From: a virus
DNA length: 64,000 nucleotides
Virus record (IMG/VR): IMGVR_UViG_3300005826_000294
Span: 62,001-126,000 of that record
Reading direction: 5' to 3' (one strand)
This document shows positions 16,563 through 56,503 of this stretch, piece after piece. The notes below the pieces were generated by a model. The model searched no databases and was not told the DNA's origin. It worked only from the letters and a program-made list of their open reading frames with translations. Each line of letters begins with the position of its first letter. Position 1 is the first letter of the stretch. The position numbers were made by a program, and so were the translations under genes.

Positions 16563-16637
16563 AAAAACCCTCCAAAAAACATAACTTTTTACACTATTAA
16601 TAAAAAAATAATAATATATATATTAGGAGAATATTCT
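16563..16637. promoter_or_regulatory. Divergent intergenic region, candidate promoters
   Basis: This is the only place in the window where genes diverge, so promoters are expected. On the plus strand TTTACA at 16588-16593 and TAATAT at 16612-16617 are 18 bases apart and lie upstream of the AGGAGA ribosome site (16625-16630). The region is nearly all A and T, which makes such matches weak. The minus strand has the GGAGGG ribosome site for the TTG-started gene but no convincing -10 box. Confidence 0.35.
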
Positions 16638-17198: not shown

Positions 17199-17216
17199 AC
17201 TTTAAAAGGATCACAT

Positions 17217-21878: not shown

Positions 21879-21890
21879 TTTTATATTTCC

Positions 21891-22628: not shown

Positions 22629-22629
22629 A

Positions 22630-25931: not shown

Positions 25932-25958
25932 TTTATATTCCTTATAATTTATTATATA

Positions 25959-26714: not shown

Positions 26715-26716
26715 TT

Positions 26717-29014: not shown

Positions 29015-29847
29015 AATTTTCCAGATATAGATAATTTCATTAATTCAAAATAAGGGTCATATATTATTTTTTTATCACTTTGAGTATGTTTCCATCCAGT
29101 TGGATAATAAGAATTTTCTAATATTCGAAACTCATGGTAATGATAACAAATAAGATTATATTTATCATTTACTATTAATTTATTATTTTCTTTTGTAATT
29201 TTATATTTGGCAATATTCCATGGTCCCATATTTATACCAGGATGTGGACAAGAAAGATGATTTTGAAATTTATTAGGAGTATCATATAAAATATTTAAAT
29301 ATCCCTGATCTGCACACATTCCATTTGGTAATGTTTCCCATTTACACCATTCTAAACATCGTTCTTTCCACCATAAAAGAAATTCTTTACAATAATTATC
29401 ATTTCGATATCCTAATATCCCAACATTAAATCTAACACCAGATCTTGGTGGTTCAAATCCATGGTCTACAACCATCAAAGAGTAATCCCCCATAACTTGT
29501 TCTATTTCATTTGGATCAGACCAAAAAGCAATGTCGGCATCAGTATAATATAATGTATTTATATAGCTAAAATTATTAAAGATATATAAAGGTAATATTG
29601 GAGATATAGTTGCATAATATTCTTTTAATAATCTTGTATGTTTAATAGTAACAAGTTCTGGAAATTGATTTTCTAAATCTTTTAATTTAATTAGTATTAC
29701 ATTATTTAATTTAGAAGAAATATTATAAACATTATCATCTAAACATAATATAAATAATATACTATTTTTATCTTGTTTATGAAGAGTATAATTACAAACC
29801 AAACCTTTATTAAAATAATTAGAATCAAAATATGTACAAAAATACAT
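29011..29847 (-). CDS. GT8-like glycosyltransferase, copy 1
   Basis: The 278-residue protein has the layout of a retaining GT-A enzyme. FCTYFDSNYF (3-12) opens it, ILFILCLDD (30-38) follows, and LYYTDADIAFW (99-109) contains the DxD metal motif as in GT8. FNVGILGYRN near 138-148 and the tryptophan-rich WWKERCLEWCKWE segment are shared with the gene at 40872-41735, as are GINMGPWNIAKYK and ICYHYHEFR. It probably uses a UDP sugar. The relative of this gene lies inside the tail-fibre cluster. Confidence 0.8.
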   Translation of the reverse strand: MYFCTYFDSNYFNKGLVCNYTLHKQDKNSILFILCLDDNVYNISSKLNNVILIKLKDLENQFPELVTIKHTRLLKEYYATISPILPLYIFNNFSYINTLYYTDADIAFWSDPNEIEQVMGDYSLMVVDHGFEPPRSGVRFNVGILGYRNDNYCKEFLLWWKERCLEWCKWETLPNGMCADQGYLNILYDTPNKFQNHLSCPHPGINMGPWNIAKYKITKENNKLIVNDKYNLICYHYHEFRILENSYYPTGWKHTQSDKKIIYDPYFELMKLSISGKL

Positions 29848-31358: not shown

Positions 31359-31366
31359 TAGTTAAA

Positions 31367-33604
31367 TTACTCCCTATTTTTAAATAATAAATTATATAAA
31401 TGATTAATATTGAAATTATTTGCTTTTTCTCTTGCCGCACGAGATACTGTTCGACAATTAAAAGAACATTTTTCTAATAATTTCCTATTGTTCTTGAATT
31501 TTTGAATTTCTCGAATAAATAAAGCAGGATTGTTTGAATTCCAAACCAAACTACCAGTAATTCCATCAAATACTATCTCCGAAATGGCTCCTACATCTGA
31601 AGCAATAACTGGAACTCCAGCCATCATTGCTTCCAAAATAACAAGAGGCATTCCCTCCATGGTTGAAGGAAGAATTAATAAATCAAAAGTAGCATAAAAC
31701 TCTTCAACATTGTCTTTTGATCCAATAAAACACACATTGTTTAATTGCTTCGCCATTTGTTCTAAAGGTTTTCTTTGAGGCCCGTCTCCAACAATTACAA
31801 AAGAAGCATCTGGAATTACTTTAGCACAATATAATATAATAGGAATATTCTTTTCAGGAGATAATCTTCCAACAAAACCTATAGTAAAATTTTCATTTAA
31901 TTTTTTCTCAACATTAAATCTTTCCCAATCAATTTGTTGAGGAAGAACAGCAACATTCTTATTACCATCTTTTAATAACTTTCTCCCCATCTTATTTGAA
32001 ACAGCCGTTATTAATGTAACATGTTCTCCGCGAGATGAAACTTTATTCATAGAATCATTCCAACTTAATTCGCTATGAACTGTTTCTACAATTCTACGCC
32101 TAAAACCTTGCTTCCATGCTTCTTGAATAACTCTATATACTCCAAAACTATTATAAAAATGAATTATACTATAATTTTCAGCTTCAATAAGGCATTTTAA
32201 TGCTTTATCTCTTCCCGAAGATGATAAATCCTCTATAATAACTCCCATATCTTTCAAAGATTGTTTAAACTTTTCTTCAGTTCCAGATATTAAAGCTACA
32301 TGAGGTTCATAAATTGATTTATTTAATTGAGAAATTGCTTGCTTAATCCATATCTCACCACCACCAACCATTTTATATGGAATAATATATAAAACTTTTC
32401 TTTTTATAGAAAGTTTTTTTGGAATAGGAAGATCTAAAATCATTTGAGCAGCATTTTCCCAAGAGAATTTTTTAACAATCTCTCTGGCTGGATTTTTAAT
32501 CCTCTTCAACTCCTTATCAAGATTTTTATAAGAATGATATAATAATTCTTTAAAATTTTCAATACTAGGATCTCCTACAACAGCACCTTTCATAACTCCC
32601 CAATACTGCATAGAATTTGGAGCTTCCATTTCTCCTGTATCAACCAATAAAGAATTATCATCATTTAAGAAATCTAATTGTCCTCCGTGTCTTGGAGCTA
32701 TAACCAATTTTTCGCAAGCTAAGGCCTCAAGAAGAGGTAAGCAAAAACCTTCCGTAGCACTCATACTAATAACTACATCACAAGCAGTATATAATGCTCC
32801 CATACTTGGAATAAATGTATTTACAACTTCAATCTCAGGAGGATTTTTCTTTCCTTTAAGATTATTTTCAATAATGGATTTTACATCAACTTCAAAAGGC
32901 TTAGTTTTATCAGGAGTTATAAATTGGGTTTTTAAAACTAAACAAACATCATCTTTGCTTGTGAATGTCTCAATATAACCTTTGATTACCCTTTCATGGA
33001 GTTTTCTATGGTGAGGAATAGCATTATGAAGGAATTTTACTTTTTTGTTTGTTTTTAATTTAAAAGGAGTAATATTGGGATTGAAAATAGTTTGATCAAC
33101 ACCATGAGGGACAATTAACATCTTATTTTTAGGAACACCATTATTAGCAAAAATATCATATGAAAATTGGCTTGAAGGAAGAATATAATCTATTGCCCTG
33201 CTATAATACTGCCATCCAGGAGGTAATACCGAACTCTCAAAGTTCCATATGGCCGCTTTACATTTGGACTCAGGAAAGAAACGCCTTGGATATTGATAAA
33301 ATATTGTATATGCTAATTCTAAATCATAAGGTCTGTTTTTGTCTTCAATTTCGGGTTTAGGTTGTTCTTTTGTAACAATAATCTCATTACCTTGCCCATC
33401 AACATATTCCGTGGGACCTTGAACCAAATGCCCATGATAACCAGAAAGTAAAATATCTTTTAAATCTTCAGGAAAATATTCTAATCCATTTGTGGATTTA
33501 AAATATATTTCATGTTCGGTTTTCTTCATTGCTCTGGCCAATGCTTGAGCTGTATAACTCCACGAATGGTTAGTTGCTCCCATTGTATGCCATCTTACTT
33601 TCAT
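31367..33604 (-). CDS. Tandem GT4 glycosyltransferase (two GT-B domains)
   Basis: The 745-residue chain holds two retaining GT4 enzymes. The first (1 to about 395) has the donor motif EGFCLPLLE (285-293), with LIVPHGVDQTIFNP at 163-176. The second (about 402-745) has YKMVGGGEIW (410-419), GFVGRLSPEKNI (576-587) and EGMPLVILE (650-658). Each EX7E-type pair is intact. It could add two sugars in a row, as other double GT4 proteins do. The ribosome site AGGAG lies within the end of the homing endonuclease gene, and the starts overlap by ATGA. Confidence 0.87.
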   Translation of the reverse strand: MKVRWHTMGATNHSWSYTAQALARAMKKTEHEIYFKSTNGLEYFPEDLKDILLSGYHGHLVQGPTEYVDGQGNEIIVTKEQPKPEIEDKNRPYDLELAYTIFYQYPRRFFPESKCKAAIWNFESSVLPPGWQYYSRAIDYILPSSQFSYDIFANNGVPKNKMLIVPHGVDQTIFNPNITPFKLKTNKKVKFLHNAIPHHRKLHERVIKGYIETFTSKDDVCLVLKTQFITPDKTKPFEVDVKSIIENNLKGKKNPPEIEVVNTFIPSMGALYTACDVVISMSATEGFCLPLLEALACEKLVIAPRHGGQLDFLNDDNSLLVDTGEMEAPNSMQYWGVMKGAVVGDPSIENFKELLYHSYKNLDKELKRIKNPAREIVKKFSWENAAQMILDLPIPKKLSIKRKVLYIIPYKMVGGGEIWIKQAISQLNKSIYEPHVALISGTEEKFKQSLKDMGVIIEDLSSSGRDKALKCLIEAENYSIIHFYNSFGVYRVIQEAWKQGFRRRIVETVHSELSWNDSMNKVSSRGEHVTLITAVSNKMGRKLLKDGNKNVAVLPQQIDWERFNVEKKLNENFTIGFVGRLSPEKNIPIILYCAKVIPDASFVIVGDGPQRKPLEQMAKQLNNVCFIGSKDNVEEFYATFDLLILPSTMEGMPLVILEAMMAGVPVIASDVGAISEIVFDGITGSLVWNSNNPALFIREIQKFKNNRKLLEKCSFNCRTVSRAAREKANNFNINHLYNLLFKNRE

Positions 33605-34500
33605 TTATTTCTCCTTATATCACACATTCTTAATTTCTTATCAATTGTAATTTTAGCACAACCGAATTTTTCTGCTATTTGTTTTCTTGTTAGTTTTTGA
33701 ATAATATATAAATTATATAGAGTTTCTTTGGAAATATCTATTTTATAATTTATTTTTCCAATGGGATTAAGATCCCATTTATATGATAAAGATTTAAAAG
33801 GAGGCTTGCCGATATATTCTAATAATAAAGGAACAGAGGTTTTAGGAATAAATATCCTATAATCTTTCTTATAATTCATAACAGATGATTTTATTTGTAT
33901 TTCTTTGTTTAACTTATAAGAAAGAAAATTTATTTCATTATAACTAAAACAATCAGTACAGAAAATAGCATATTCTTTATTAGGAAGAGAACCATCTCCT
34001 AAATACCAATGAAGAACAAGATTTGGGGAAATTTTTAAATCAGGAATTATCTTCTTTCTATTTATATACCACTTTTTTTCTAACTCTTCAAACTGTATAG
34101 AACAATGCGTTGAAAATATATATCTTGTATACCATTTGTTCCAGTTCTTATGATAATATCTTTCTTTTTGAATACTATTATTAACTAATGGTATATTGCT
34201 ATCCTTAAAAAAATTAGAAAGCCATACAGCATAATCTTCCTTGCAACTAGAAAAACAAAACTTAGCTTGATGTGTTCTTTTAGTTAAAGATCCATCTCCC
34301 AATAATTCTCCCTCTATTCTTTGTATTATCTCTTTATTAAGAGGATAATTATTTTGTTTTGCTAATCTCAAACCCTCTCCAGATGTCCTTAACTTCGTAT
34401 TCTTTAACAAAATTTTTCTAGTTTTTGATGGAGAAATTCCAACTTTCTTTGCTATTTGACGAATAGAGAATCCTTTCTTATAAAACTCTACAATTCTCAT
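33601..34500 (-). CDS. LAGLIDADG homing endonuclease, free-standing
   Basis: The 299-residue protein starts with a helix-turn-helix (FSIRQIAKKVGISPSKTRKIL, roughly 11-31). It has two LAGLIDADG motifs, RIEGELLGDGSL (61-72) and LVLHWYLGDGSL (161-172), both with the catalytic Asp. A second helix-turn-helix (LTRKQIAEKFG) is near the C-terminus. It is of the monomeric two-motif type. A small ribbon-helix-helix gene overlaps its start by ATGA and could control it. It sits between the fibre genes and the glycan locus. Confidence 0.87.
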   Translation of the reverse strand: MRIVEFYKKGFSIRQIAKKVGISPSKTRKILLKNTKLRTSGEGLRLAKQNNYPLNKEIIQRIEGELLGDGSLTKRTHQAKFCFSSCKEDYAVWLSNFFKDSNIPLVNNSIQKERYYHKNWNKWYTRYIFSTHCSIQFEELEKKWYINRKKIIPDLKISPNLVLHWYLGDGSLPNKEYAIFCTDCFSYNEINFLSYKLNKEIQIKSSVMNYKKDYRIFIPKTSVPLLLEYIGKPPFKSLSYKWDLNPIGKINYKIDISKETLYNLYIIQKLTRKQIAEKFGCAKITIDKKLRMCDIRRNK

Positions 34501-34667
34501 TTCTTTGGATAAACCAAAGGAAGTCCCTTATGTTCTTTATATAAATTGGCAATTATTTCTCTTAAAACAGCGGTAATTGTTTTAAAATTCTCTTTTGAAT
34601 ATTGAGCAAGAAAATCATATAACTCTCTTTCAATTCTTATATTAATTTGTTTTCTATTATCATCCAT
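34497..34667 (-). CDS. Ribbon-helix-helix DNA-binding protein, 56 aa
   Basis: This short gene starts at ATG 34665-34667 with a very good AAAGGAG site 6 bases upstream and ends in an ATGA overlap with the homing endonuclease. The 56 residues read as an Arc/CopG-type fold: KQINIRIERELYDFLAQYS (6-24) provides the beta-strand and first helix, and FKTITAVLREIIANLYKEH (28-46) the second helix. Such proteins bind DNA as dimers and repress their own operon. I infer a role in limiting the endonuclease or the downstream glycan operon. Confidence 0.75.
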   Translation of the reverse strand: MDDNRKQINIRIERELYDFLAQYSKENFKTITAVLREIIANLYKEHKGLPLVYPKK

Positions 34668-34765
34668 TATTGCTCCTTTAAAAACAGCTTTAATAATATA
34701 AATATATAGTTATTGATAGATTTATGATATATTTATTGAAGCATTATGATATAAAAAAAATTTTA
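34668..34765. promoter_or_regulatory. Intergenic region before the glycan operon
   Basis: This 98-base gap, long for this genome, lies between the last fibre gene and the ribbon-helix-helix gene. It is almost purely A and T, with stretches such as TATATTTATATTATTA on the minus strand that could hold a promoter or an operator for the small DNA-binding protein. No GC-rich terminator hairpin is seen. The boundaries of any promoter cannot be fixed by eye. Confidence 0.3.
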
Positions 34766-37732
34766 TCAACTTTTTATCCACTCATCTATCCAGCCGTGGC
34801 AATCAACACGATACTCTGAAAATGCAGCTTCTCGGAAATAATCTACTTGTTTTGTAGTTGTTGGAGTCGCAATTAATCCCCTACTATGAGCTGCTTCTCC
34901 ACCAGCATTTCCACCTAACCGAAATGTAGATGTATTCCAAAGAGTTGTTCCACTTGAAGAATCACCTTCTCCATTAACAAAAAAGTAAGAAGTGCTTGCA
35001 GAATTAACCTGAATATAGGCTTGTAAAATAGCATATGAAGCGGTCGCTGGAATATGATCAACAAGTGATAAAGTCTGTATTGATACATCTGCTGAGCCAC
35101 CCCCTGTAAATCCTCCAGTAGGTTGGCTTTGTGTAGCATAACTAAATTGTTGCCCACTTTGGAATACTTTTGCCAGATTACCACTACCATCAATATAATC
35201 CGCCCATAAATACTCAAAATTAGAATATCCAGCCGGACCAGTAGAAGGTGGATTATCACTGGCTCTAATGCTCAATATATTATCATCCCCACTAGATGGT
35301 ACAGCATACCAATATAGCCATTTGCTGTTTCCTTGAGATCCAGCTTCATCATATCCAAGATCTGCAATTCCTGTTGCAACTGCCCAATTAAGGGTTCCTA
35401 TAACTGTTCGTTGTTTCCCATCCTGTAGAGTTAATTTAACAGTAGAAGGTTGCCCTGAATATGCCAAAAAATCCACGGTAGTTACTGTTTGCCATATTCC
35501 CTTAAATGGTTTTGTATCTGGCAAGTATGGTGCTTGGGCTCGCGCCTCGTTGGCTCCCGGATACAGGGCGTTTCGATACCCGGCAAGTTGGATGGTCCAG
35601 GTCGATGAAACCGACTGGCCGAACTGCACCGCCAGTTCGCGTGCAGGGCACGCCATCCTTCTGGCGGCGCTGTAAGAACTATTCGTCGCAAATCGCTGAG
35701 TGTAGGGTTGTGCTGATGCTGCGGTCCAACTCGGTGCGGCTTCCGCAGCCAGCCACAACTGCTGATTGGTGGAAGAAACAATTCCGTGGACGTCTATCTC
35801 ATCAGCACTTTCTGGCATCAAAGCCCGCAGAGCGGTGGTCTTGTCCACCCAGGAACCGACCGTCCCAGGAACCGCCGAATCCCCAGAGTCGAGTGTGTAG
35901 GCCGTTAGATCTTTGGCCAGCGGCTCGTACCACCCACCCTCGGTCATCAGGAACTCTTCAAGCACCACAGGTCCCGTAGAAGTCACCCGCACCGTCCACA
36001 GGTAGCGGTATACGGAGAAGCTCGGTGGCCCCGAGGTTCCCGGCACCGCATCTTTGGACAGCACAAGCTTAGCCCTCGTGACGTCGGTGTCGCTCTCGAC
36101 CGCGAATAGGTGATAGAGGTCCCCCGCCGATTCGGCCGTGGCATCACCCGTGTCACGGCCACCAATGCCGTCCGTGTCGATGTCACACGTCAGAGGCAGG
36201 CTCGCTTTGCGCCGGACGCCATCGTTGAACAGGAGCCGCATCTCGGAGTCAGCACCGATGGCGGCGGTAGCGTTGATGAGCGATGTATCAGAGCTGTCTC
36301 GTGCAAAGACGGGTGTGTTTTCGGGATGGACGTAGCCACCGCGAATTTGACGTATCGCCGAACGAGACGTAAAGGACAATCCACCAAATGTGGTCGCCCC
36401 AAAGACCGTGCCAGATCCAGCGTCGTGGTATTCACCGAGATCTATCGTATTCGAGCCAGAACTGAGATCTAACTCTACTACGCCAGACAGTGGCGTCCAG
36501 TAGCCGGATACAGCTGACGCACCTTCCAGGGGGACCCAGCTTCCGGAATTTACACGATAAGCCAATGTGCGTGTCGCTGTGGAAGAACTAGAAATGATCA
36601 CAGAATACGTTAGGGCGAGTCTTTCCCCTTCGATAATGGTGACCGTGTGAGATAGACCAGTAATGATATTCCATGCTGAGGCAGACAACCCGGTTTGATC
36701 GCTTGATAGAGCTGCCGATGAAACCTCTACCCCCCCGGCAACACCATTGAACTCTACGTTCGCGGTGCCTCCAACGTTGGTCACCGAGACGTTGGGACCC
36801 ACGTAGTTGACCGCTGCGGGCTTGTCGATGATGTTGACGCCATCATGGCGTATGGGGACCAGGCCGCCTCTATTTTGATCAACGTCAATCCAAGATCCGG
36901 CCTTGATGCTCCAGCTCTGCGAAGTGAAGGTCGCTGCATACAGCTCTAGCGTGTGCGAGCCCGCGTCGACCTGCACAGAGAAACTGTCATTAAGAGGACC
37001 TTGATAAGTAGTATTCGGGAGCACCTCTGATAAAACGTTCCCAATCAAGGTGCCATCAAGACGAAGCTGCAGGTATACAGTGTTAGCACCTGTTCCACTT
37101 GCCCCCTGAACATGCAGTCCAACCCGGACAGTCTCGTCCTGGGTCGACTCAAACGTCACGCTCATCGGCTCCGTGGGGACGGGCGACAGTGATGTGGCCG
37201 TGATTGTCCGGTCAGCGCTCTGGATGAACTTGTTTGGTGCTAGGTTTCCACCTGCACCAGAACCACTAACAGCAACAAGCTCTAACCGAGGAGCCTGAAC
37301 CGGATTCGACGACGACCCAAGAACCTGGAGACCCGTCCCATTTATCTCTTTTGCGTAGGCCGTGACCGTGTGTGTCCCCGCAGATAGTTCAACCTCTCCA
37401 AACCATACGCTGGAGTCAAAGTTTGTTATCACACGGATTTGCCATTCGTCATCGTAACCTACCACTATAGGAGTTCCAGCTTCATCAAAAACTAATTTGA
37501 TTTGTCCAGTAGTGGCCGACACGGCATTGAATTGGCAACCGAACATGATCCGGTATAGACCAGAGAACGGAACCTCAAAGCTCATGCTGGCTTCGTCTTC
37601 CGGCATGATCTTGGTGTCCGTGGCTCCTATGGATATCGTGTTTACGGGCTGGCCGTCGCTGATTGCAATTCGGATCCCTGGAGCAGTGATGATCGCGTCA
37701 GAAATCTGGTCTACTTTTATAGATCTACTCAT
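34766..37732 (-). CDS. Tail fibre/receptor-binding protein with GC-rich mosaic segment
   Basis: The 988-residue protein is rich in Ser, Thr, Gly and Val and built of beta-rich domains, as in tail fibres or appendages. Its position at the end of the fibre genes suggests receptor binding. Two segments near the C-terminal half are related: one with LYHLFAVES, LVLSKDAVPG and VYRYLW, and another with WLYWYAVPS, SIRASDNPP and FEYLWADY. DNA from about 35520 to 37710 is GC-rich while the 3' end is AT-rich. The start has GGAG close upstream, within the end of the preceding gene. The receptor is unknown. Confidence 0.75.
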   Translation of the reverse strand: MSRSIKVDQISDAIITAPGIRIAISDGQPVNTISIGATDTKIMPEDEASMSFEVPFSGLYRIMFGCQFNAVSATTGQIKLVFDEAGTPIVVGYDDEWQIRVITNFDSSVWFGEVELSAGTHTVTAYAKEINGTGLQVLGSSSNPVQAPRLELVAVSGSGAGGNLAPNKFIQSADRTITATSLSPVPTEPMSVTFESTQDETVRVGLHVQGASGTGANTVYLQLRLDGTLIGNVLSEVLPNTTYQGPLNDSFSVQVDAGSHTLELYAATFTSQSWSIKAGSWIDVDQNRGGLVPIRHDGVNIIDKPAAVNYVGPNVSVTNVGGTANVEFNGVAGGVEVSSAALSSDQTGLSASAWNIITGLSHTVTIIEGERLALTYSVIISSSSTATRTLAYRVNSGSWVPLEGASAVSGYWTPLSGVVELDLSSGSNTIDLGEYHDAGSGTVFGATTFGGLSFTSRSAIRQIRGGYVHPENTPVFARDSSDTSLINATAAIGADSEMRLLFNDGVRRKASLPLTCDIDTDGIGGRDTGDATAESAGDLYHLFAVESDTDVTRAKLVLSKDAVPGTSGPPSFSVYRYLWTVRVTSTGPVVLEEFLMTEGGWYEPLAKDLTAYTLDSGDSAVPGTVGSWVDKTTALRALMPESADEIDVHGIVSSTNQQLWLAAEAAPSWTAASAQPYTQRFATNSSYSAARRMACPARELAVQFGQSVSSTWTIQLAGYRNALYPGANEARAQAPYLPDTKPFKGIWQTVTTVDFLAYSGQPSTVKLTLQDGKQRTVIGTLNWAVATGIADLGYDEAGSQGNSKWLYWYAVPSSGDDNILSIRASDNPPSTGPAGYSNFEYLWADYIDGSGNLAKVFQSGQQFSYATQSQPTGGFTGGGSADVSIQTLSLVDHIPATASYAILQAYIQVNSASTSYFFVNGEGDSSSGTTLWNTSTFRLGGNAGGEAAHSRGLIATPTTTKQVDYFREAAFSEYRVDCHGWIDEWIKS
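35520..37710. other. GC-rich island inside the fibre gene
   Basis: By direct count, bases 35821-35880 have 39 G or C of 60, while an ordinary stretch (4561-4620) has 8 of 60. The rise starts near 35520 and falls back near 37710, just before the gene's start codon, without breaking the reading frame. Lower-GC patches near 37000-37050 and 37450-37510 make it look mosaic. This is the pattern of a recent import from a genome with much higher GC. Confidence 0.85.
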
Positions 37733-37734
37733 TA

Positions 37735-39747
37735 TTAACTCCTATAAATTACTTCATAGTCATCTGCAGAACCAGATGCTAAAATATCTATTTCATTATT
37801 ACCACTATCATAATTATAATGATTATATGTTGAAGGTGTATTATTATATTTCATCTTTACTCCATTTCTAAAAACAATAATATCATATCCAGAAGGAGTA
37901 TCTGCGGTTCCAGATCCTCTTGGTGTAGCATTTAAAGCCTCAGAAACCGTTGCTCCTGGAGTTTCGACGCCGGTCGTAGAAAATTCTTCTTCATGTGGTG
38001 TCGAACCAGATCCTGATATTTCAGCCCATTTTATTCCTGTTGCTTCTGAACTATCTGCTGTTAGAACATATCCATCAGAATCTATTGGAAGTCTTGTATT
38101 ATCTGTATCATAAACCCAAAGATCACCTTTTGTTGTTAATGGAGAGGAGGTTCCACTTCCAGATACATAACCATCAAGAGTAATTTGAACAACATTTCCA
38201 TTATTATCTAAATAAAATAATTCTGTATCACCAGCATCATCTTTTGTATATAATAACCCACTATTTTCTAAAGTCGATGGATCATTAATTTCATTTAATG
38301 CTAAATATCCATCAATCTCTAAAGCATCTGTTCCATATCCATCTATAAAAACTGGTTCTCCATTAATAACCCATATTATATTTCCATTAATATATGATTC
38401 GTGAAGGGTTCCAGAACCACTACCTCCTCCGCCTGGTGGAGGTGTCCAAGAGCCATCGGCTCTCAAATAATTAGTCGTTCCCCCTCCAGATGCTGGAGCT
38501 AAACCTTTAAGAGAATCTGTAAAACTATTAAGAATTTCGGTTGCTTGAGAAGAAGTCAAATCAACTGGGTCTCCAGTCCCTGAACCAGAAACTCTACCTT
38601 TGATTGTTGATTGAGCCATATCTGTAAGTTTTGTATTATCAACGACACCAGTATTAATCGTAGGGCCTGGATATGTTCCTGTAAGATCTCCAGAAGCAGA
38701 CCCTATTGGATTTCTTGAATCACTTAATCTAGAATCATTTCCTTGACAAATTGTATTAGCAGAGGAACCATATGTTGGTGTTATAATAGCATCAATATTA
38801 TCTCCTATATTTGTAACACCATTAGAACCTGTAATTGAATCGGTTTGTCCAAATAAATATCCATCTAAACGATATGAAAGACCATAATCATCCATATAAA
38901 TAAGAGCAGAATGTCCTTCTATTTCTTTTGAATATAAAAGACCAGCATTTACTAATGGTAAAGGATCATAAATATCATTTAGAGTTAAATATCCATCAAT
39001 TTCTATAGCATTTTCTTCATTTGCGTCAATAAAAATTGGACCGGAATCCGCATTAATTATTCTTCCTTCGCCACTTCCTCCTTGGTCATATGCTTGATCA
39101 AGAGTGTTATTTAAGGGAATATCTATCCATTTAATACCTAATAATTCTGTACTATCTGCAGATAAAATTTGAGTATCTGTTCCAACGGGAATTCTAGAAG
39201 AAGTTGTTCCATATCCATAAAGATCACCTTTAGTTGTTAAAGGATCAATAACAGATATGTCTTCCCATTTAAATCCAATTGCTTGAGAACTATCAGCCAT
39301 TAAAATTTTGTAATTTGTTCCAATAGGAAGACGATCTTCAACAGTAGAAAACCCATATAAATCACCTTTAGTTGTAAGAGGAGAATCAATTGGTAAACTA
39401 CTAATAGTAATACGTTTTTTATTCCATGAATCAGTACTATCTTCAATTATAAACTCATCAGAAACTGCGGGAGAGCTTTTTAGAGTAATCTGATGAATTT
39501 CGTCAGAGACATTATCGTGTATAGCATCATTGTCTGTTCCAACAAGAGATTCTAAAACAGTTACTCTTTTCCTAACACTTCCAAGTTCTTCTAAATCTGA
39601 TCCTAAAACAGATTGAACTGAAAAAATAGCATCTCTAATTGAAAGTATTTGACTTATATGTGATACATCTTGCTTATTAACAAGGTTGGGCATTTCTGTA
39701 GTTGTATCTAAACTAGTTGGGAAATTACTTTTCCAAGTTTTTACCAT
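37735..39747 (-). CDS. Tail fibre protein with tandem repeats
   Basis: The 670 residues start with a short coiled-coil-like segment (about 35-70). Three copies of a unit of about 43 residues beginning PLTTKGDLY(G) follow (123-165, 169-210 and one near 540-580). Two copies of a longer unit contain AIEIDGYLTLND or ALEIDGYLALNE. The middle has SGDLTGTYPGPTI and YLRADGSWTPPPGGGG, both frequent in phage fibres. The C-terminus (FRNGVKMKY, NNEIDILASGSADDYEVIY) is a common fibre tip module. A GGAGGAG ribosome site precedes the start. It probably forms a trimeric fibre or adaptor. Confidence 0.85.
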   Translation of the reverse strand: MVKTWKSNFPTSLDTTTEMPNLVNKQDVSHISQILSIRDAIFSVQSVLGSDLEELGSVRKRVTVLESLVGTDNDAIHDNVSDEIHQITLKSSPAVSDEFIIEDSTDSWNKKRITISSLPIDSPLTTKGDLYGFSTVEDRLPIGTNYKILMADSSQAIGFKWEDISVIDPLTTKGDLYGYGTTSSRIPVGTDTQILSADSTELLGIKWIDIPLNNTLDQAYDQGGSGEGRIINADSGPIFIDANEENAIEIDGYLTLNDIYDPLPLVNAGLLYSKEIEGHSALIYMDDYGLSYRLDGYLFGQTDSITGSNGVTNIGDNIDAIITPTYGSSANTICQGNDSRLSDSRNPIGSASGDLTGTYPGPTINTGVVDNTKLTDMAQSTIKGRVSGSGTGDPVDLTSSQATEILNSFTDSLKGLAPASGGGTTNYLRADGSWTPPPGGGGSGSGTLHESYINGNIIWVINGEPVFIDGYGTDALEIDGYLALNEINDPSTLENSGLLYTKDDAGDTELFYLDNNGNVVQITLDGYVSGSGTSSPLTTKGDLWVYDTDNTRLPIDSDGYVLTADSSEATGIKWAEISGSGSTPHEEEFSTTGVETPGATVSEALNATPRGSGTADTPSGYDIIVFRNGVKMKYNNTPSTYNHYNYDSGNNEIDILASGSADDYEVIYRS

Positions 39748-39793: not shown

Positions 39794-40900
39794 TTAAAGT
39801 ATATTTACTCTAAAACGTTTTATATATTGCCCACCTTCTTGATATATAATTCTTCCTTGAAATGAAACATCATTAGATCCTGAATCACCATCTTGATATA
39901 ACCCTGGATAACCATAAACACCATTTGATCCAGGAGTTCCAGCCGGTCCATTTGCTGCTGATTCATCACAACCACTAACACCTCCTGTTGATCCATCATA
40001 ACCATTCATACCGCCTCCACATCCAGCACCACCTAATCCTCCTGGTCCACCTATTCCATAAGAACCAGCAGAACCACCATCTGCATCTCCACCAATTCCT
40101 GGTTCTCCACTTGAATAAGATGATGAATTTATTGAAAACCATGAACTTGTTGGCCTAGAAGATTCAATAACTATATTTCCTCCATTTCCTCCATTCCTTC
40201 CAGCTCCACCAGTTCCTCCAGCTCCTCCACTTGTAGCACAGCCTCCTGATCCACCAGTTCCACCATTTCCACCATTATAAGAACCTAAATCACAATCAAT
40301 ACTACAAGCAGCATCACCTCCATTTCCTCCATTTCCTCCATTTCCTCCATTTCCTCCATTTCCTCCATTGGCATTCCCACCATTTCCACCATTACCACCA
40401 TCTGATTCTATATTTCCAAGTATAACTTCTACAGAAGATAAAGTAAGATCTCCTCCATTTCCAGCATATCCTCCACCTAAAGCAATTCCGCCATTTGTTG
40501 GATAACCACCAAATTCACCACCCCCACCACTTCCGCCATTTCCTCCACCACTACAAAAGACAGCATCAATCCCATTAGCTCCATTAGTTCCATTGGCCCC
40601 ATTAGTTCCATTAGTTCCATTAGAACTACTACCAGTTCCACCATTATATCCTTTTGTACTTATAGTATTTCCAACACTATATATTTTTCTAATAGCATTA
40701 ATTTCACAATCATTAGAATATCCATTAACATTAGCATGTATATATGCTTCAATACAATTTATAGAAAAATTACTTATAATCGTAGTAGCAGATGATATTG
40801 TAAATATCCCAACATTTATATGAACTCCACCTATATTTCCACCAGAAAAAGTCCAATCATCTCCTCCATGATCACCCCCACCAGTTGCAGTCCAAGTCAT
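39794..40900 (-). CDS. Glycine-rich adhesin-like protein
   Basis: Of 368 residues, a large fraction are Gly, arranged as GGNGG, GTGG and similar repeats through the centre (about 85-340). The first 80 residues ([16 protein letters not shown], then a beta-rich part) and the last 25 ([16 protein letters not shown]) differ in composition and could anchor the domain. Glycine-rich cores like this form polyglycine-II helices in tail-tip adhesins such as gp38 of T-even-type phages; this is an analogy, not proven homology. About eight Cys residues are unusual for such a protein. GGAGG lies 8-9 bases before the ATG, inside the upstream glycosyltransferase gene. Confidence 0.7.
40318..40369 (-). repeat. 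9-bp tandem repeat encoding Gly-Gly-Asn
   Basis: Five full copies and one partial copy of CTCCATTTC (plus strand) occur in a row. Each copy encodes Gly-Gly-Asn on the minus strand. As the unit is nine bases, gain or loss of copies by slippage keeps the frame and would change only the adhesin's length. Confidence 0.9.
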
Positions 40901-41735
40901 TTAAAAAATCCTCCCTAAATAAACAATATTTTTTATAATATGAATCATATATGTATTTTGATACATTATCTCTAAACCTAACAGAAGCATCATAACCATT
41001 TTTATTAATTTTAAGACCTTGATAATGAAAACAAATTAATAAATCATTATCAACATATATCTTATCATTTTTTATTTTTAATTGATGTTTACACATATTC
41101 CAATATGCTAAATTGATACCATGATGTTTTGATATCAAAACACCTTTAAACTTTTCTGGTTGATCATAAAAAATATTAAAATATCCTTCTTCGGAAAACC
41201 TTCCCCCTTCTCCTGGTTTCCATAAACACCATTCAATGGTTTTCTTTTGCCACCATTTTAAAAATTTATTTCCCAATTTATCATTTTTGCAAGCATAAAA
41301 TCCACCATTATATCTTCCTTGTCTTGGAGGAGGTTCCCCAGATTCTCGTGATGTAACCATAAAAGAATAACTGCCAAGAATGTCATTTATTTGAGAACTT
41401 TTGTCCCAAAAATATAAATCCGAATCAACATAATAAACACAATTCTCATTATAAATGTCAAATATATAACTAGGAATAAAGACCTTACAAGTTTGAGTAT
41501 AAGCATTCCAAGGTCTTGTTAATCGAGCCTTAAATAAATCTGGATAATAGTTTTCTAAATCATATAATTGGATTGGTATTATATTATTTTTATATTTATA
41601 TGCTTCTTGAAAAACTCTTTGATCTAAACATAAAACATAAATTTTCATTGTTGGATCAAAATCTATTATTGATTTACAACATAACCAACCTTCTATTGAA
41701 AAATTACTATCAAATAACATACATGCCGAAATCAT
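40872..41735 (-). CDS. GT8-like glycosyltransferase within the tail-fibre cluster, copy 2
   Basis: The 287-residue protein is related to that of 29011-29847. Shared blocks include ACMLFDSNF at the start, [18 protein letters not shown] with the DxD motif (about 105), [35 protein letters not shown] and ICFHYQG. The 3' end overlaps the glycine-rich adhesin gene by 29 bases and the start overlaps a fibre gene as TAATG, so it is made with those proteins. An enzyme bound into the fibre operon is a good candidate to glycosylate fibre protein. It is less likely to be a structural protein. Confidence 0.8.
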
Positions 41736-43483
41736 TAGTTAAATACCGCATAAAGATCTGTATATTGTAGATATGCTGTATCTGTTCCTGTTGTAACTCT
41801 TAGATTAAACTCAACAACTAGAAGATTTCCAGGTGTTTCTGGAGGGTTTGAAACGGTAATTGTTTGTTGTAAAACTGTTTCTAATGTATTTGTTGTTGTA
41901 AAGGTTGTACTATCCCAAGTAGAAACGCCATCTCCAACTCTAACAATACATTCTGCAGTATCTCCATAACCACCTGAAACCCAAAGACTAACAACTACTA
42001 ACCACTCATCATTAACACGTCCAGTTGGAATTACAAGTCTAAATGTTTTTTTTGTTACTGAACTAGTTCCTGATTCAGCAAATGTTGTATCATCAGAGAA
42101 TACAAGGAAATGTCCTACTGATCCTCCACCACCACCAGATTGAGCTTGAGGTTCCCATTGATTATTATATGTGCTCCATACTAAGACATCACTATCATTT
42201 GGAGAAGAATTTTCTACAGCTCTTCCTTGAATCGCAATAACAGTAGGATCTGGATAAAAACCATCAAGATCACCACTTGCGGCCTCAGTAATTCCTGGTA
42301 TAGCATCTGGAACCCATTGAGAACCACTATTATTCCAAATTAAAACATCTCCATCATTTGGAGACGCAGAATCTACATTATTTCCTTGTAATCCTGTTAC
42401 AGTAATGTTTGTAAAAACTCCTGATACATCACCACCAGAAGAAGTCGTTGTAAATATAAAATCTGCTCCACTTACTTTGGAATTAATACTTGATGGTGTA
42501 TCAGCAATATGTTGGGCTCCGCCCATAGTGTGTGAAGCAACAGATGGAGTTGCAGGAGCCCATTGGGAACCTGTCCAAGATAAAACTTGTCCAGAACTAG
42601 GAGATGTTAAGGAAATGGCCCTTGTTTGAAGTTGTCCAGCATTTTGAGCATCTGCTAAAACTCCACTTAATCCTCCAACATTTATCTCATCAGCTCCACC
42701 ATTTTCATGAGTAGAAGCATGTGCTCCTGGAGCACCAGCAGGTGTTGGAGTCCATTTTGATCCATCATATGCTAAAACTTCTGATGCTGAAGGAGTCGCA
42801 GAATCTATATTTCTTCCTTGAATTTTAACAACAGTAGGATTTGGATATGTTCCATCTAAATCTCCATTAGCATCTGTTATTCCACTTATAATAACATTTA
42901 TTGGAGTCCATTGGGAACCTGTCCAAGATAAAACTTGATTAGATGCAGGAGATCCAGAAATACTATATCCTAATAATCCAACAACAGTAGGATTAGGTAA
43001 AGATCCATTAAGATCTCCTCCAACATTACCACTTCCTGTTGCTGAAATGACAGTAGCATATCCATCTTCTAATGCTCTTAAATTTGAATAAATTCCATCA
43101 CTCCAACCATTAAATTCATTTGTTTCATCTTTAGCAGTTAATCTCATATTAAGATAAGGACTTCTAACACAAACTCCAACTCTTCCTTTTAGTATTCGAT
43201 TTAATGTTAGTTCTACAATATAAGAACCATAAGCATCTGCGGTAAATGATGTTTTAATATCTCCAACAGATCCTGAGTCTACCTCTCTACTCCAAGACAC
43301 AAAACTTAAAGAAGCAGAAGATCCGGGAGGTTTAGAAACAATTCTCCAAGCATATCCATCTACATGAGTTTTATCTGTATTTTCAAACTCGACTAAACTA
43401 TTATATAGTATATCATCATTACTAATATTAGGTTCTCCACCATTTACGCTGATACTAATAATCGCATTTTGTCTATGCGCCAT
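41735..43483 (-). CDS. Tail fibre protein with GDL-x-G repeats
   Basis: After an N-terminal beta-rich domain of about 150 residues, which may attach it to the tail, the 582-residue protein has five units of about 40 residues of the type GDLNGSLPNPTV ... QVLSWTGSQWTP. One is truncated to its second half (GQVLSWTGSQWAP). The repeats are a common phage fibre shaft module. The C-terminal region (about 460-582) is a beta-rich domain with FRLVIPTGRVNDEW that may form the tip. It ends in TAATG with the glycosyltransferase gene. Confidence 0.83.
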   Translation of the reverse strand: MAHRQNAIISISVNGGEPNISNDDILYNSLVEFENTDKTHVDGYAWRIVSKPPGSSASLSFVSWSREVDSGSVGDIKTSFTADAYGSYIVELTLNRILKGRVGVCVRSPYLNMRLTAKDETNEFNGWSDGIYSNLRALEDGYATVISATGSGNVGGDLNGSLPNPTVVGLLGYSISGSPASNQVLSWTGSQWTPINVIISGITDANGDLDGTYPNPTVVKIQGRNIDSATPSASEVLAYDGSKWTPTPAGAPGAHASTHENGGADEINVGGLSGVLADAQNAGQLQTRAISLTSPSSGQVLSWTGSQWAPATPSVASHTMGGAQHIADTPSSINSKVSGADFIFTTTSSGGDVSGVFTNITVTGLQGNNVDSASPNDGDVLIWNNSGSQWVPDAIPGITEAASGDLDGFYPDPTVIAIQGRAVENSSPNDSDVLVWSTYNNQWEPQAQSGGGGGSVGHFLVFSDDTTFAESGTSSVTKKTFRLVIPTGRVNDEWLVVVSLWVSGGYGDTAECIVRVGDGVSTWDSTTFTTTNTLETVLQQTITVSNPPETPGNLLVVEFNLRVTTGTDTAYLQYTDLYAVFN

Positions 43484-43494
43484 TTAATTTCCTC

Positions 43495-46341
43495 CTATAT
43501 TCCTAAAAGGGCTCTCATTTCGCCATCTGTTATATTTTGAGTTGGATTTCTAAAACCTGCTTTCTTTAAATAAACTTCAATAAGAATTTTGGTTCTAATT
43601 GCTGGTTCAGCAATTGCTTCATAACCATCAGTCATATAAAGTGTCATTAAAGAAATATCTGGATCATAATTCAAACCAACAATATCTGTAATATTACCGC
43701 TAAATGGAACGGAAACATTACTTGAAGTTGATTGAATTGAAGGAGCAATTTTAACTTTTCCATCATCAAAATCTGTTGCTTGAACATAAGAATTATCTGA
43801 GAATTTCATAGCATTAAAGCCAGAAGCAGTTTTCCCATTAGCCTCTTCTGCTACAAAAGTATCAAATAATAAAATTCCTGAATATCCATCAATCAATATT
43901 GGACTTCCATATGCATCTGTAATTGGAACATGTAATGATAAATGAGTCATCTCAAAATCAATTTTATAATCTGTTCCATCTGGGTTAAGTATTTCACCTT
44001 CTAATAACAAATCTCCAGGAATAAAATAATTATTCTGTCCACCATTACATCCATTTACAGGATCTGAAATTGTAGTAGCAAGCTTTCTTCTTGAATCACT
44101 TACAACTACTAAATCTGGGATCCATGTTGGAAAGTATTCTATCTTCCAATTAATACTTGAAAATGGAACATTAGCAAAAGAAGAACAAACACTAGGAATT
44201 TCGGCTTCAGCCTTTAATGAATCAGTTAAATTTTCCACAGTAAGCATTAGTCTAGGAAAAGTTGAACCAGCAGAAAAACTTGAAACTATTTTATCAACAA
44301 AATCTTCTATTAATCCCTCATCAACATTATTAATAATACCATTAGAATCTACATCTGATCTTAATAATGTTTCAATATCAACATATCCATCAATAATAAA
44401 CTGTTGAGTCATTGAATCTGAAAGATCAAGAATATTTGTACCTAATCCAACTCCAAGAATTTCTTCAGTATAATTAAGATAATCTTGTCTTATTTCTTGT
44501 AATGTTAAAAGATCTTCAATACTTATAGAGCCATCTCCATTTACATCTCCATAAGCATCATAAAATAACTCTGCCTTGGTAATACGATAGGTTTCACAAC
44601 AACTTGTTGAATTAGGAGTTAATAATGATCCTACCCAATTATGTTGTAATAAATCAGCATTAGGATAAAGTATATTAAACTCATTTCTTCTAGCCAATCC
44701 AATTATATTTGTTATTCCATTTACTTCGGCAATATTTGCCCTTGGGTTCCTATCTCTTGCACAACCTAATAATAAAGGTGTTGGGTTAGTTTCAAGTAAA
44801 GTATTTAATCTAGACAAACTAATAAGAGAAAAACTAGGAACAGGTTTTACTCTTGAAGAAATAAGATTTCCTGTTCTTTGATCTTGAGTTGGTTCAGAAT
44901 ATTCTAATTGTCTTTCCATAATTATATAGTTATATGCGTCTCTTGTTACTAAACTAAATTCATGAGGACCAGAAACATAAGGAACCTCAGTATTTGTTGA
45001 ATCTTTTTGTATTTTTGGAACTTCAATCCCAATTCCATCTTCATATGCTATTCCATCAGCTACTTTAATATAATCACCATAAACAATATACCACATATCA
45101 CTATCTTTTATATTAATCCATTGAGTTCCATCATAATAGATCATATATCCTGTGTCGCCACGTTGAGGAGCCTCTTCTATTATCAAATCTCCTACACTTG
45201 TGTCTCCAGATCTATGAATTGTAAAAGCATAATATTTATCAGGTGTTACTGGTGATCTTAAAGGATCTGAAATATTAGTATTTGTAAATACAAAATCTAC
45301 TATTTGAGAGTAACCATCTAATACAATACCTTGTTTTTCTAAATCTATTTTATCAAGAGAAAGTTGCCCAATAATTCTAGGATCTGGGTCAAAATCTTCT
45401 GAATTATCTGGTACAGGAGAAACTGGGCAATTTACCTCGGTTTGAAGTTCATAAACAGATAAAGTAACGGCTCCAGACCAATCATATCCATCAACTGAAT
45501 CATAGGCAGACGAAAGTAGAATAGATATTTTTTGAATATTATTACCATTGGACTGAAATTTTTGTCCAATTTTGGTTGTTACATCTAAAGCAGATAAAGT
45601 TCTTTGTTGAGACGATACTAAACCAATATCCAAATCAGCAATAGATTTTGCATCATCATCAGCTCTAATAGCAGTATCTAACATTGTAGTTACTGTTGTT
45701 GTCCAATTTGCTGGAATTAATTCAGCAAAAAACTTATTTGGTTGGGAAGTTTGATATGCTAATATTGTATCACGAGATGCTTCAAGAGAATCAACTTCAA
45801 CAATTAAGCAACGTCCTACAAGATTACCAGAAACAATAGCATTTGATCTACTTCCACGAAGATTCCCAGCAAAATCACCAAAAATTATAGAACGTATTTT
45901 TTTATATCTTCCACGAGTTAATTGAGTTCCATTCTCATTAAAAATAAGATCATCATGTACTAATTCATCACCAAATGTGTCTCCTATAATAGAAACTTTT
46001 GATTGGGATTTTCCTTCTAAAACCACATCAGATAAGGTTATAGAAAGTTGAACTCCTTTAATAACATCACTTACGACATCATCATTATCATATATATTTT
46101 GTCCATCAAAAGAATAAGCATCAAGTAATGCTTGTTGTTCTGAACTAAGATTATTAGTATCAAGTATAACATTCTTTATAGTTGTATTTACAGTAATACC
46201 ACTGCTAAAAAAGTTATGAATGTTGGAAGCATCAATATCTTTATGTCTAGTTTGTTCATCAACCATATCATCTTTATCTACCTGCATTCCATCAAACCAA
46301 TTAACTCGGGATATTCCTACCGGTAATTTTTTGGTAATCAT
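43495..46341 (-). CDS. Tail structural protein with dockerin-like calcium-binding pair
   Basis: The 948-residue protein starts SRVNWFDGMQVDKDDM, a pattern seen at the N-terminus of phage tail or baseplate proteins. Most of it is beta-rich. Residues 599-610 (DVNGDGSISIED) and 663-674 (DVDSNGIINNVD) fit the Ca-binding loop of type I dockerins or EF-hands, separated by a helix-rich spacer longer than in a true dockerin. Cys pairs such as SCCET (580-583) are present. It lies between the giant LamG-type protein and the fibres and may connect appendages to the baseplate. Confidence 0.72.
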   Translation of the reverse strand: MITKKLPVGISRVNWFDGMQVDKDDMVDEQTRHKDIDASNIHNFFSSGITVNTTIKNVILDTNNLSSEQQALLDAYSFDGQNIYDNDDVVSDVIKGVQLSITLSDVVLEGKSQSKVSIIGDTFGDELVHDDLIFNENGTQLTRGRYKKIRSIIFGDFAGNLRGSRSNAIVSGNLVGRCLIVEVDSLEASRDTILAYQTSQPNKFFAELIPANWTTTVTTMLDTAIRADDDAKSIADLDIGLVSSQQRTLSALDVTTKIGQKFQSNGNNIQKISILLSSAYDSVDGYDWSGAVTLSVYELQTEVNCPVSPVPDNSEDFDPDPRIIGQLSLDKIDLEKQGIVLDGYSQIVDFVFTNTNISDPLRSPVTPDKYYAFTIHRSGDTSVGDLIIEEAPQRGDTGYMIYYDGTQWINIKDSDMWYIVYGDYIKVADGIAYEDGIGIEVPKIQKDSTNTEVPYVSGPHEFSLVTRDAYNYIIMERQLEYSEPTQDQRTGNLISSRVKPVPSFSLISLSRLNTLLETNPTPLLLGCARDRNPRANIAEVNGITNIIGLARRNEFNILYPNADLLQHNWVGSLLTPNSTSCCETYRITKAELFYDAYGDVNGDGSISIEDLLTLQEIRQDYLNYTEEILGVGLGTNILDLSDSMTQQFIIDGYVDIETLLRSDVDSNGIINNVDEGLIEDFVDKIVSSFSAGSTFPRLMLTVENLTDSLKAEAEIPSVCSSFANVPFSSINWKIEYFPTWIPDLVVVSDSRRKLATTISDPVNGCNGGQNNYFIPGDLLLEGEILNPDGTDYKIDFEMTHLSLHVPITDAYGSPILIDGYSGILLFDTFVAEEANGKTASGFNAMKFSDNSYVQATDFDDGKVKIAPSIQSTSSNVSVPFSGNITDIVGLNYDPDISLMTLYMTDGYEAIAEPAIRTKILIEVYLKKAGFRNPTQNITDGEMRALLGI

Positions 46342-53266: not shown

Positions 53267-56200
53267 TTATCGCTCCTCTATATTAACAGAAATTGTTCCC
53301 GGAGCAATATATTCATTACCCTCGGCAGAAATACTTTCCTTCGTACCAGAAATATTTGCTTTATTAAATCTTGTAACTCTAACTCTATCTACACCAGCAA
53401 CATTATAGATATTACTTACTATATCTGAAGCATCTAATGTTGTCCCAAGTTCCTCTGAATTTAATATAGAACTAATATTATCAGCAACATCCTGTTTAAC
53501 AGTTTCTTCTTTATCTTTAAAAGATGTATCTATTACTACATATACGGTTACATCAATTTTTATCTCAGTAGCAGATTTTACTAAAACATCTGCTGTAATT
53601 GGTCTAGAATCTTCAATTGCCTCTGTAGAATCAACAATAAGTTTATTATATTCATAATTAACAGTTATTCTTTCACCCTCTTTTGGAGCAGTATAAGTAT
53701 AATCTACAGAATATGTAGAACTTAATGCTGGTTGATTTAAACTATCAATAGTTATATTACCCTGAATATTTCCTATTGAATCTTGAAAACCAGATATTCT
53801 GTTAATAGAATATATATTTCCAAATCGTTTTTCTGTAATTCCTACACCATTTTTAGAGAAAAATAAATCTTCTGTATCAAATTGCTGGGCATAATAAAAA
53901 ACAACTCTTAATTGTGTCCCTGTACTAATAGGATTTGATGTATTTATTGAAGTATCTGACAAACCAACTTCTGTTTTACTTAAAGATGTATTCTGTAAAG
54001 AATTTGCTTTATCCCATACATTATTATAGATAGAATAATTAGTTACATCATATGTTGTGTTAACAGATGATACTTCTTCAGTTACCGTTAATTCAATATT
54101 TTCAACTGATATTAAACGAGCTATATATATTGTTGATGGTAATGTTGCTGTATCAGAGAGACCTTTTGATCTTCTTATTAATATTGCTAAATCTAATTCA
54201 TCATTAGCAGTAGCAGTATAAATTCCAGTTATTTTATTTATTGTAGTCCCAGAGATACGTAATAACCCAGAAGTTGATAAACCACCTATATTGACTTGAA
54301 GTCTAGATGGAGATCTTCTCTTATTAGAAATAATTGTTGTTCCAGAAAATTCGTTTTGGACTGGTTGGTAACCATCTATATTTTGAAAACTATTTAAATT
54401 ATTTGTAGAAATAGGAAGCTCAGTTATATCAGTTTTCGGGATTAAATTAAAAAAATCAGCAACATAATTTACTCTAACGCTTGTGCCTGTTGTGGTCCCA
54501 GCATCAGAAGGAAGAGTTATTTGATTATTTAAAACAGTTCCAGATCCATAACTATCACTAGTAAATACATCATTTAAACTATAAATAACATTAACATTAT
54601 CTCCAACTTCAGCCAAAGTATCTGATGGAAGAGTAATTGTTTTATTAGAAATACTACCATTATTTAAATAAGTATTATATACTTCTGGAGAACCAGAAAT
54701 GCTAATATCTTTTATACTATGTAAATTATTAGTATTTGATGAAGTTACAACAGATTTTCCAGCAATAACACTACTAGTTTCTGATTTATATGTATTAACC
54801 GATAAAACTCTACTAATTGGAAAATCAGTAGTAATATTCATATTTTCATAGGCATCTACTAAAACTGTTTTAATTTCATCTCTTATATAATTAGAAAAAC
54901 CCCATTCAATTGAATCTTGAGCTTCATTAAGAGGATCTATTGGATTTAAATTATCTAAATCTATATGTGGATCAAAACTATAAATCCAGGTATAATCAAC
55001 TTGTAGAATATCGCTAGATGTTGGCAAAGTTCTTCCACTTATTTGTATTCTTCCTGTTGTATTTATACTTCCAGAATCATCAGGAGTTTGATCTTCAATA
55101 ACATATCTTTCACCTGTTGTTAAATTAAAAACTCTACTAACGGTCCTAACAGGATAATGTTTAAGTTGAATAAAGTTTCTTGAACTTGAAACAGAAGATT
55201 TTTCATTTGTTATTTGAATATCTTGTTTAACTGCCTCTATTGTTAAAATATCTGTAAATCCTAGGCCATCTATACTATTAGAACCTGTTTTAGTATTTGA
55301 TTCTCCTTGAAGCTGAATTTTATTATCTGTCCAACCTAATTTATCTAATCCAAATGGACTACCTGACGCTTCTCCTGTATCTTTAATAAGTTTAAAATTA
55401 CCTTGTAAATTACCTGTTTCATCTAAATATTGTTCAACAAAATTAGGCCCAGACAAACTTCCACTAACAGAAACCAAAGAAGAAACAGGTTGTTCTGGAA
55501 TTTGTGCTCCTTGTGATAATACAGCAACTCTTCTAGAATTTATAGTTAAAGAAGTGCTTGGAGTTAAACTACTTTGCCCTAAAACATAATTATTTAAAGA
55601 ATCAGTTGGATCATCTTTACCACTTTGATCATTAAAAATAAAACTATCCGTTCCAGATTGGGCATTTGTTCCCATAACATATATATCTACTCTTCCACCT
55701 GTTCCAGGTTCTGAAACAATTTTATTTCCATCATTATCATATCCAACAATGGTCCCATCTCTAACCATTAATGGATCACCTGGTTCTACAACAAGGGCAT
55801 CAATAGCATCAGATAAACTTAATATTGTGCTTCTATATGCTACTGATGTTCCTACATTAGCTCCAGCAAATGTAGCAAGAACTTTTGCTTTAAGTTCTGA
55901 ATCTAATTCTAAATCTGTTCCTCCCGTAAAAGATGTTAAATTTGTAACATTATTTACATCACTAGCACTTGTTGTAATTATTGAATATGATGCTATATTT
56001 CCAATTGACCCAGCACTTTGAGCTTCAACAGAAGCCTCAATCGCAAATTCATCATTAATATTAACAGTAGCAAGTTCTTGTCTCAATCTTGTTGCTGTAG
56101 CCCTTAAAGCATTAGATTGAGATGTATTTATAGATAAAGTAGATACTGTTAAAAATGGAATTCCATTTCTTGTTCTAACTATTGTTCCAGAAGGAATATT

Positions 56201-56503
56201 AAAATCATCATCAATAGATTTAAATGTAAATACAACAGTTCCTATTGATTTTGTCCCATTCTGTTTTATAACTCCAAAATTACTGGCGTAATTAACTAAA
56301 TCTTGACCAGAAATATTTAGGATAGATTGTAGACTAGATAATTCTTTAAGAGCTTCATATATGTCTGAAACTTGCAAAGCTTGAAGATCAATCATAAGAT
56401 CTCTCGCAACCGTTCCAGGTTTTGTGTCTAAACTTGGTTGTGTTAGATTTAGTTGTTGAAGCATATCTAAAACAATATTATTAAAACTTTTAAAAGTTAC
56501 CAT
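53267..56503 (-). CDS. Baseplate J-like protein (gp6-like)
   Basis: The N-terminal 260 residues of this 1078-residue protein follow the Baseplate_J pattern: DTKPGTVARDLM near 26-37, then IPSGTIVRTRNG near 99-110, AGSIGNIASYSI near 165-176, and TSFTGGTDLELDSELK near 193-208. Such proteins form the wedge ring of contractile tails. The remaining 800 residues are extra beta-rich domains, making the chain about three times as long as P2 gpJ. The end (VADNISSILNSEELG, VDRVRVTRFN) also fits the family's C-terminal fold. It is next to the gp25-like gene, as in many myoviruses. Confidence 0.88.
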   Translation of the reverse strand: MVTFKSFNNIVLDMLQQLNLTQPSLDTKPGTVARDLMIDLQALQVSDIYEALKELSSLQSILNISGQDLVNYASNFGVIKQNGTKSIGTVVFTFKSIDDDFNIPSGTIVRTRNGIPFLTVSTLSINTSQSNALRATATRLRQELATVNINDEFAIEASVEAQSAGSIGNIASYSIITTSASDVNNVTNLTSFTGGTDLELDSELKAKVLATFAGANVGTSVAYRSTILSLSDAIDALVVEPGDPLMVRDGTIVGYDNDGNKIVSEPGTGGRVDIYVMGTNAQSGTDSFIFNDQSGKDDPTDSLNNYVLGQSSLTPSTSLTINSRRVAVLSQGAQIPEQPVSSLVSVSGSLSGPNFVEQYLDETGNLQGNFKLIKDTGEASGSPFGLDKLGWTDNKIQLQGESNTKTGSNSIDGLGFTDILTIEAVKQDIQITNEKSSVSSSRNFIQLKHYPVRTVSRVFNLTTGERYVIEDQTPDDSGSINTTGRIQISGRTLPTSSDILQVDYTWIYSFDPHIDLDNLNPIDPLNEAQDSIEWGFSNYIRDEIKTVLVDAYENMNITTDFPISRVLSVNTYKSETSSVIAGKSVVTSSNTNNLHSIKDISISGSPEVYNTYLNNGSISNKTITLPSDTLAEVGDNVNVIYSLNDVFTSDSYGSGTVLNNQITLPSDAGTTTGTSVRVNYVADFFNLIPKTDITELPISTNNLNSFQNIDGYQPVQNEFSGTTIISNKRRSPSRLQVNIGGLSTSGLLRISGTTINKITGIYTATANDELDLAILIRRSKGLSDTATLPSTIYIARLISVENIELTVTEEVSSVNTTYDVTNYSIYNNVWDKANSLQNTSLSKTEVGLSDTSINTSNPISTGTQLRVVFYYAQQFDTEDLFFSKNGVGITEKRFGNIYSINRISGFQDSIGNIQGNITIDSLNQPALSSTYSVDYTYTAPKEGERITVNYEYNKLIVDSTEAIEDSRPITADVLVKSATEIKIDVTVYVVIDTSFKDKEETVKQDVADNISSILNSEELGTTLDASDIVSNIYNVAGVDRVRVTRFNKANISGTKESISAEGNEYIAPGTISVNIEER

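Follow-up and report, generated by a model that had tools for sequence, protein, structure and literature searches.

The window analysed here is a 64,000-nt stretch of DNA (positions 62001-126000) from an uncultivated phage record of 301,683 bp (IMGVR_UViG_3300005826_000294), and the record, at 30% G+C, represents a large, very AT-rich bacterial virus. An open reading frame (ORF) of 988 amino acids is located between its baseplate genes and a cluster of glycosyltransferase genes (Table 1). This ORF is separated by only 2 nt from the 670-aa fibre-like ORF upstream, and an AGGAG motif resembling a ribosome-binding site (RBS) ends 8 nt before its ATG, within the last codons of the upstream ORF. 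On the other side, the fibre locus adjoins a long AT-rich run (23-28% G+C) with several glycosyltransferase genes, which occupies window positions 15846-34500 and continues upstream of them; the gene order of this run is conserved in part of the clade.

Table 1. Genes and gene parts of the fibre locus, in window coordinates
Feature	Position	Strand	Basis
Double glycosyltransferase gene with clade-wide conservation	31367..33604	-	Clade comparison
LAGLIDADG homing endonuclease, free-standing	33601..34500	-	PF03161, 6e-23
Short ribbon-helix-helix-like gene that borders the slot downstream	34504..34668 (ends approximate)	-	Sequence read by eye; counterparts in relatives
988-aa ORF encoding a probable chimeric tail fibre / receptor-binding protein	34766..37732	-	Uninterrupted frame; RBS-like AGGAG
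AT-rich part, codons 738-988 (40% G+C, GC3 0.19), C-terminal tip-like domain D2	34766..35521	-	Change-point analysis; weak tail fibre matches
GC-rich part, codons 1-737 (55% G+C, GC3 0.58)	35522..37732	-	Change-point analysis; codon-usage likelihood
GC-rich tip-like domain D1 (about aa 471-737), distant homologue of D2	35522..36322	-	Local alignment
N-terminal part (aa 1-335) with what may be two related beta-sandwich-like repeats	36728..37732	-	Weak repeat relation
670-aa fibre-like protein, directly upstream, translationally abutting	37735..39747	-	phrog_32934, 2.3e-29; weaker tail-protein matches
Glycine-rich 368-aa protein, same fibre slot	39794..40900	-	Similar counterparts in relatives
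582-aa fibre protein	41735..43483	-	Tail fiber PHROG 9729, 2e-9; relatives have a counterpart
Conserved 948-aa baseplate-proximal protein that borders the slot upstream	43495..46341	-	49-78% identity in 7/7 related records
Baseplate J / wedge protein	53267..56503	-	PF04865

The 988-aa ORF occupies a variable slot with conserved borders

A search with the baseplate J protein yielded seven related IMG/VR records (55-78% identity). When the glycosyltransferase at the opposite border of the slot was used as the query, the same clade was recovered, with L047 as an additional contig and a further 16 matches that were weaker. In this clade, the 948-aa gene is followed by a variable slot, the ribbon-helix-helix-like gene, the LAGLIDADG endonuclease (in three records), and the glycosyltransferase. 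The slot holds nothing in two records and one to five ORFs in the others, often a fibre with a shared N-terminal region together with a glycine-rich protein. The 988-aa ORF sits in this slot of the tail/fibre operon, and no homologue of it was found in the seven relatives.

The closest relative (78% identity) carries the upstream fibre gene cut to its first 73 codons, with the N-terminal ~73 aa of the 670-aa protein present there as a short separate ORF; the start of a TnpB-like ORF and the end of the contig (L034) follow. The N-terminus encoded by this start is near-identical to that of a TnpB-like ORF of the present record, where adjacent ORFs at record positions 35315-37032 resemble, when read by eye, TnpA and TnpB of the IS607 type. 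Two relatives carry a copy of the LAGLIDADG endonuclease at the equivalent site, with 62% and 46% identity to the one described here. A broken second LAGLIDADG-type endonuclease lies in the fibre slot of the relative IMGVR_UViG_3300023199_000204 (L035 ~2180-3050, equal to L042 ~8070-8940).

Synonymous composition changes abruptly at a single codon

In 120-bp windows, G+C content rises from 37% to 62% at position ~35520 and drops from 47% to 24% between positions 37620 and 37860, which places the GC-rich block where the first-pass annotation had put it. The DNA that flanks the ORF is much poorer in G+C, at 24% immediately before the start codon and 18-27% immediately after the stop codon. The difference within the ORF is concentrated at the third codon positions: GC3 drops significantly after codon 737 (Fisher's test, P = 1.5e-28; values in Table 1), whereas GC1 and GC2 are nearly equal on both sides. 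Because GC1 and GC2 barely move while GC3 falls, the shift is synonymous, and the protein is not its cause. For comparison, the mean GC3 of the record is 0.16 (SD 0.08, 251 mechanically called ORFs).

A change-point analysis locates the break at codon 737 (window position ~35521), with a log-likelihood gain of 61.9 nats against a permutation maximum of 8.6 nats (n = 1,000). Among ORFs of at least 400 aa, this is by far the strongest within-ORF step in the record, where the runner-up reaches 16.5 nats (56 ORFs). In the loci of the relatives, the best change point reaches 32.5 nats (132 ORFs of at least 400 aa); it lies in an 850-aa ORF of a related phage (L036, 15328-17880) and is the second strongest within-ORF GC3 step observed. 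A second, weaker step in the 988-aa ORF falls at codon 483 (7.5 nats, permutation P = 0.0035). G+C content is 53% in codons 1-483 and 61% in codons 484-737, a hint that the GC-rich part is itself made of two pieces that meet at codon 483. The block averages 55% G+C, and the "roughly 60% G+C" reported earlier is too high for this average.

The frame is open over the in-gene junction, in agreement with the first-pass annotation, which had described an island with two junctions inside the gene. We found that the block begins at the ATG or within a few codons of it and that only one junction is in the gene. Since the block extends from the start codon to this single junction, it makes up the 5' three quarters of the gene and is not an internal island. 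Nor is it the only GC-rich tract in the record: outside the window, a tract at record positions ~5800-7550 (up to 67% G+C in 300 bp, GC3 ~0.6) encodes pentapeptide-repeat proteins, at 5.8-7.4 kb, and more genes with raised GC3 are located at record positions 8.8-14.8 kb.

Two tip-like domains meet at the junction

Comparison with family models (Pfam, PHROGs, NCBIfam, and PDB sequences) returned no match for the 988-aa ORF, and no paralogue was found within the record. Local alignment relates the GC-rich domain D1 to the AT-rich domain D2 (z = 6.2, a score reached by 0 of 500 shuffles), with 24% identity over 104 residues, and shows the two domains to be homologous. The relation between the N-terminal repeats is weak (z = 3.0, equalled by 4 of 500 shuffles). 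AlphaFold single-sequence models of both halves had pLDDT values of 32-34 and were uninformative on the fold.

Two proteins match D2 weakly, a tail fibre of podovirus ctVRi840 (UOF81314.1, E = 3e-3) and a protein of Pseudomonas phage vB_PsaM_M1 (UZS00943.1, E = 7e-3), the latter annotated as 'tail fiber assembly protein U''. Both are ~31% identical over 44-47% of D2, at E values of only 3e-3 to 7e-3, and neither matches D1 or the N-terminal parts. Given its position in the operon and the weak similarity of D2, we infer that the 988-aa ORF encodes a tail fibre or receptor-binding protein. The earlier designation as a fibre gene thus holds with respect to operon position, which is conserved in the relatives, and is backed weakly by the similarity of the C-terminal domain to tail fibre proteins. 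In a low-identity alignment, D1 stops close to the point at which such fibre domains naturally terminate. This is only suggestive of a natural end at that point; if D1 does end there, the junction would lie roughly where one fibre should end and the next tip-like domain begins.

Codon usage points to a donor at roughly 50-57% G+C

To describe the codon usage of the pieces, likelihoods were compared for 24 codon sets. Given the amino acids, codons 484-737 fit the usage of the record poorly (-2.27 nats per codon) and that of two relatives at 51-57% G+C much better (-1.26 and -1.22), with uniform usage at -1.29. Codons 1-483 show mixed usage, for which the uniform set fits best (-1.27) and no tested set is better, while codons 738-988 fit AT-rich usage (-0.97 to -0.99). 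The synonymous shift and the misfit of the GC-rich codons to the record make the foreign origin of the GC-rich part well supported. A donor at roughly 50-57% G+C is likely.

The protein search that had been proposed as a way to the donor found none. No relative of the GC-rich part was detected in phages or plasmids (both searched by tblastn), IMG/VR (queried with the whole ORF and three pieces), or GTDB genomes (searched twice), with pattern scans reaching close relatives only; the horizontal transfer is consequently inferred from composition. Among the sets tested, the best match to the GC-rich codon usage comes from phages of the same clade at 51-57% G+C, and the donor need therefore not be phylogenetically distant; it was possibly a phage of this clade. 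Composition varies widely within the clade, whose genomes span about 30-57% G+C: GC3 of the baseplate J gene is 0.09 in the present record, 0.31 in the closest relative, and 0.62 and 0.72 in two GC-rich relatives. With phages of this clade spanning about 33-57% G+C and no donor found, the "distant genome" first named as the source is unproven.

Fusion as the probable origin of the chimeric gene

We consider it probable that the 988-aa ORF is a chimeric tail-fibre gene, in which a foreign fibre was fused in frame onto an AT-rich tip-like domain. The homologous tip-like domains on either side of the junction make fusion, and not a clean replacement, the best reading. Under this scenario, illegitimate recombination close to or exactly at a domain border would have joined a fibre gene from a genome of ~50-57% G+C in frame to the 251-aa domain D2, within a slot that gains and loses fibre genes. 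D2 matches the AT-rich phage in composition and would be a resident domain, although a different AT-rich phage could have been its source. The encoded protein, most likely a tail fibre or an accessory receptor-binding protein, would have a tandem pair of homologous tip-like domains, the foreign D1 and the AT-rich D2, and would be expressed from the fibre operon beside the baseplate genes. Its likely role is to bind to the surface of the host, where the graft would add a binding specificity or alter an existing one.

The first-pass annotation had instead envisaged the replacement of a receptor-binding segment. A true replacement, in which a resident AT-rich fibre kept its tip and received its 5' part from a donor, would explain why foreign 5' DNA meets AT-rich 3' DNA at one junction only. 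It is, however, unlikely, because the foreign part includes the N-terminus and apparently ends with a tip-like domain of its own, followed by the homologous AT-rich one, an arrangement that an exchange at equivalent positions would not yield. The initial observation is thus confirmed and its interpretation partly supported. That the step arose when a GC-rich contig piece was misjoined into the phage record is conceivable for a metagenomic record in which the junction was seen without a second copy and the ORF has no homologue in seven relatives. We nevertheless regard such an assembly chimera as very improbable: the block starts at a start codon behind an RBS-like sequence, stays in frame, and joins homologous domains, and repeats longer than 23 nt that could cause a misjoin were not found. 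Least credible of all is an effect of the protein itself, a fibre rich in Gly, Ala, Ser, and Thr, on composition. In its favour, other fibre-like genes of this locus have G+C raised to 34-39% with low GC3. We rejected this explanation on the synonymous third positions of the 988-aa ORF, where the shift lies.

Mobile elements were weighed as well. A transposon-type insertion was rejected, with only short imperfect repeats present and none of them bracketing the GC-rich block. The LAGLIDADG endonuclease might drive the exchange of adjoining fibre genes by cutting slot alleles that lack it; in favour of this, it immediately follows the slot in three records, and a broken second copy lies within one slot. 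Its presence is, however, not linked to fibre content across the relatives, one of which combines the endonuclease with an empty slot while others have fibres and no endonuclease, and we think this mechanism improbable. Homing endonucleases at the locus, together with the TnpB-like gene beside a truncated fibre anchor in one relative, led us to a further conjecture, to which we likewise give little credence: that the interval from the 948-aa gene to the glycosyltransferase is a nuclease-associated site for host-range cassettes, where cuts promote the capture and fusion of foreign fibres.

Relation to known mosaic fibres

Mosaic tail fibres are a well-known route by which phages change hosts. 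The case described here fits this known kind, mosaic and horizontally acquired tail fibres, and is in that respect fairly ordinary; its particular features are the sharp step and the tandem tip-like domains. Tail-fibre modules are horizontally shared among tailed phages, as in Alteromonas phages A5 and V22 (PMC10579305), and P2-type fibres are described likewise in the work of Haggard-Ljungquist et al. (1992), as cited there. In those cases, as in ours, the fibre genes that end the tail operon are unlike the backbone and seem to have moved between phages. Donors or sharing phages were identified for A5/V22 and the P2-type fibres, whereas here composition alone points to the transfer, and, unlike in those systems, the junction lies between two homologous tip-like domains of one ORF. 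Bacillus phage G is distant kin by its baseplate wedge protein (29% identity over 27% of the length) and has no match to the chimeric ORF.

The gene is an unusually sharp example of its kind, with GC3 falling from 0.58 to 0.19 at a single codon between homologous tip-like domains. These observations suggest that fusion, and not swapping alone, can make fibre genes grow, and that a donor need not be phylogenetically distant for the step in composition to be large.
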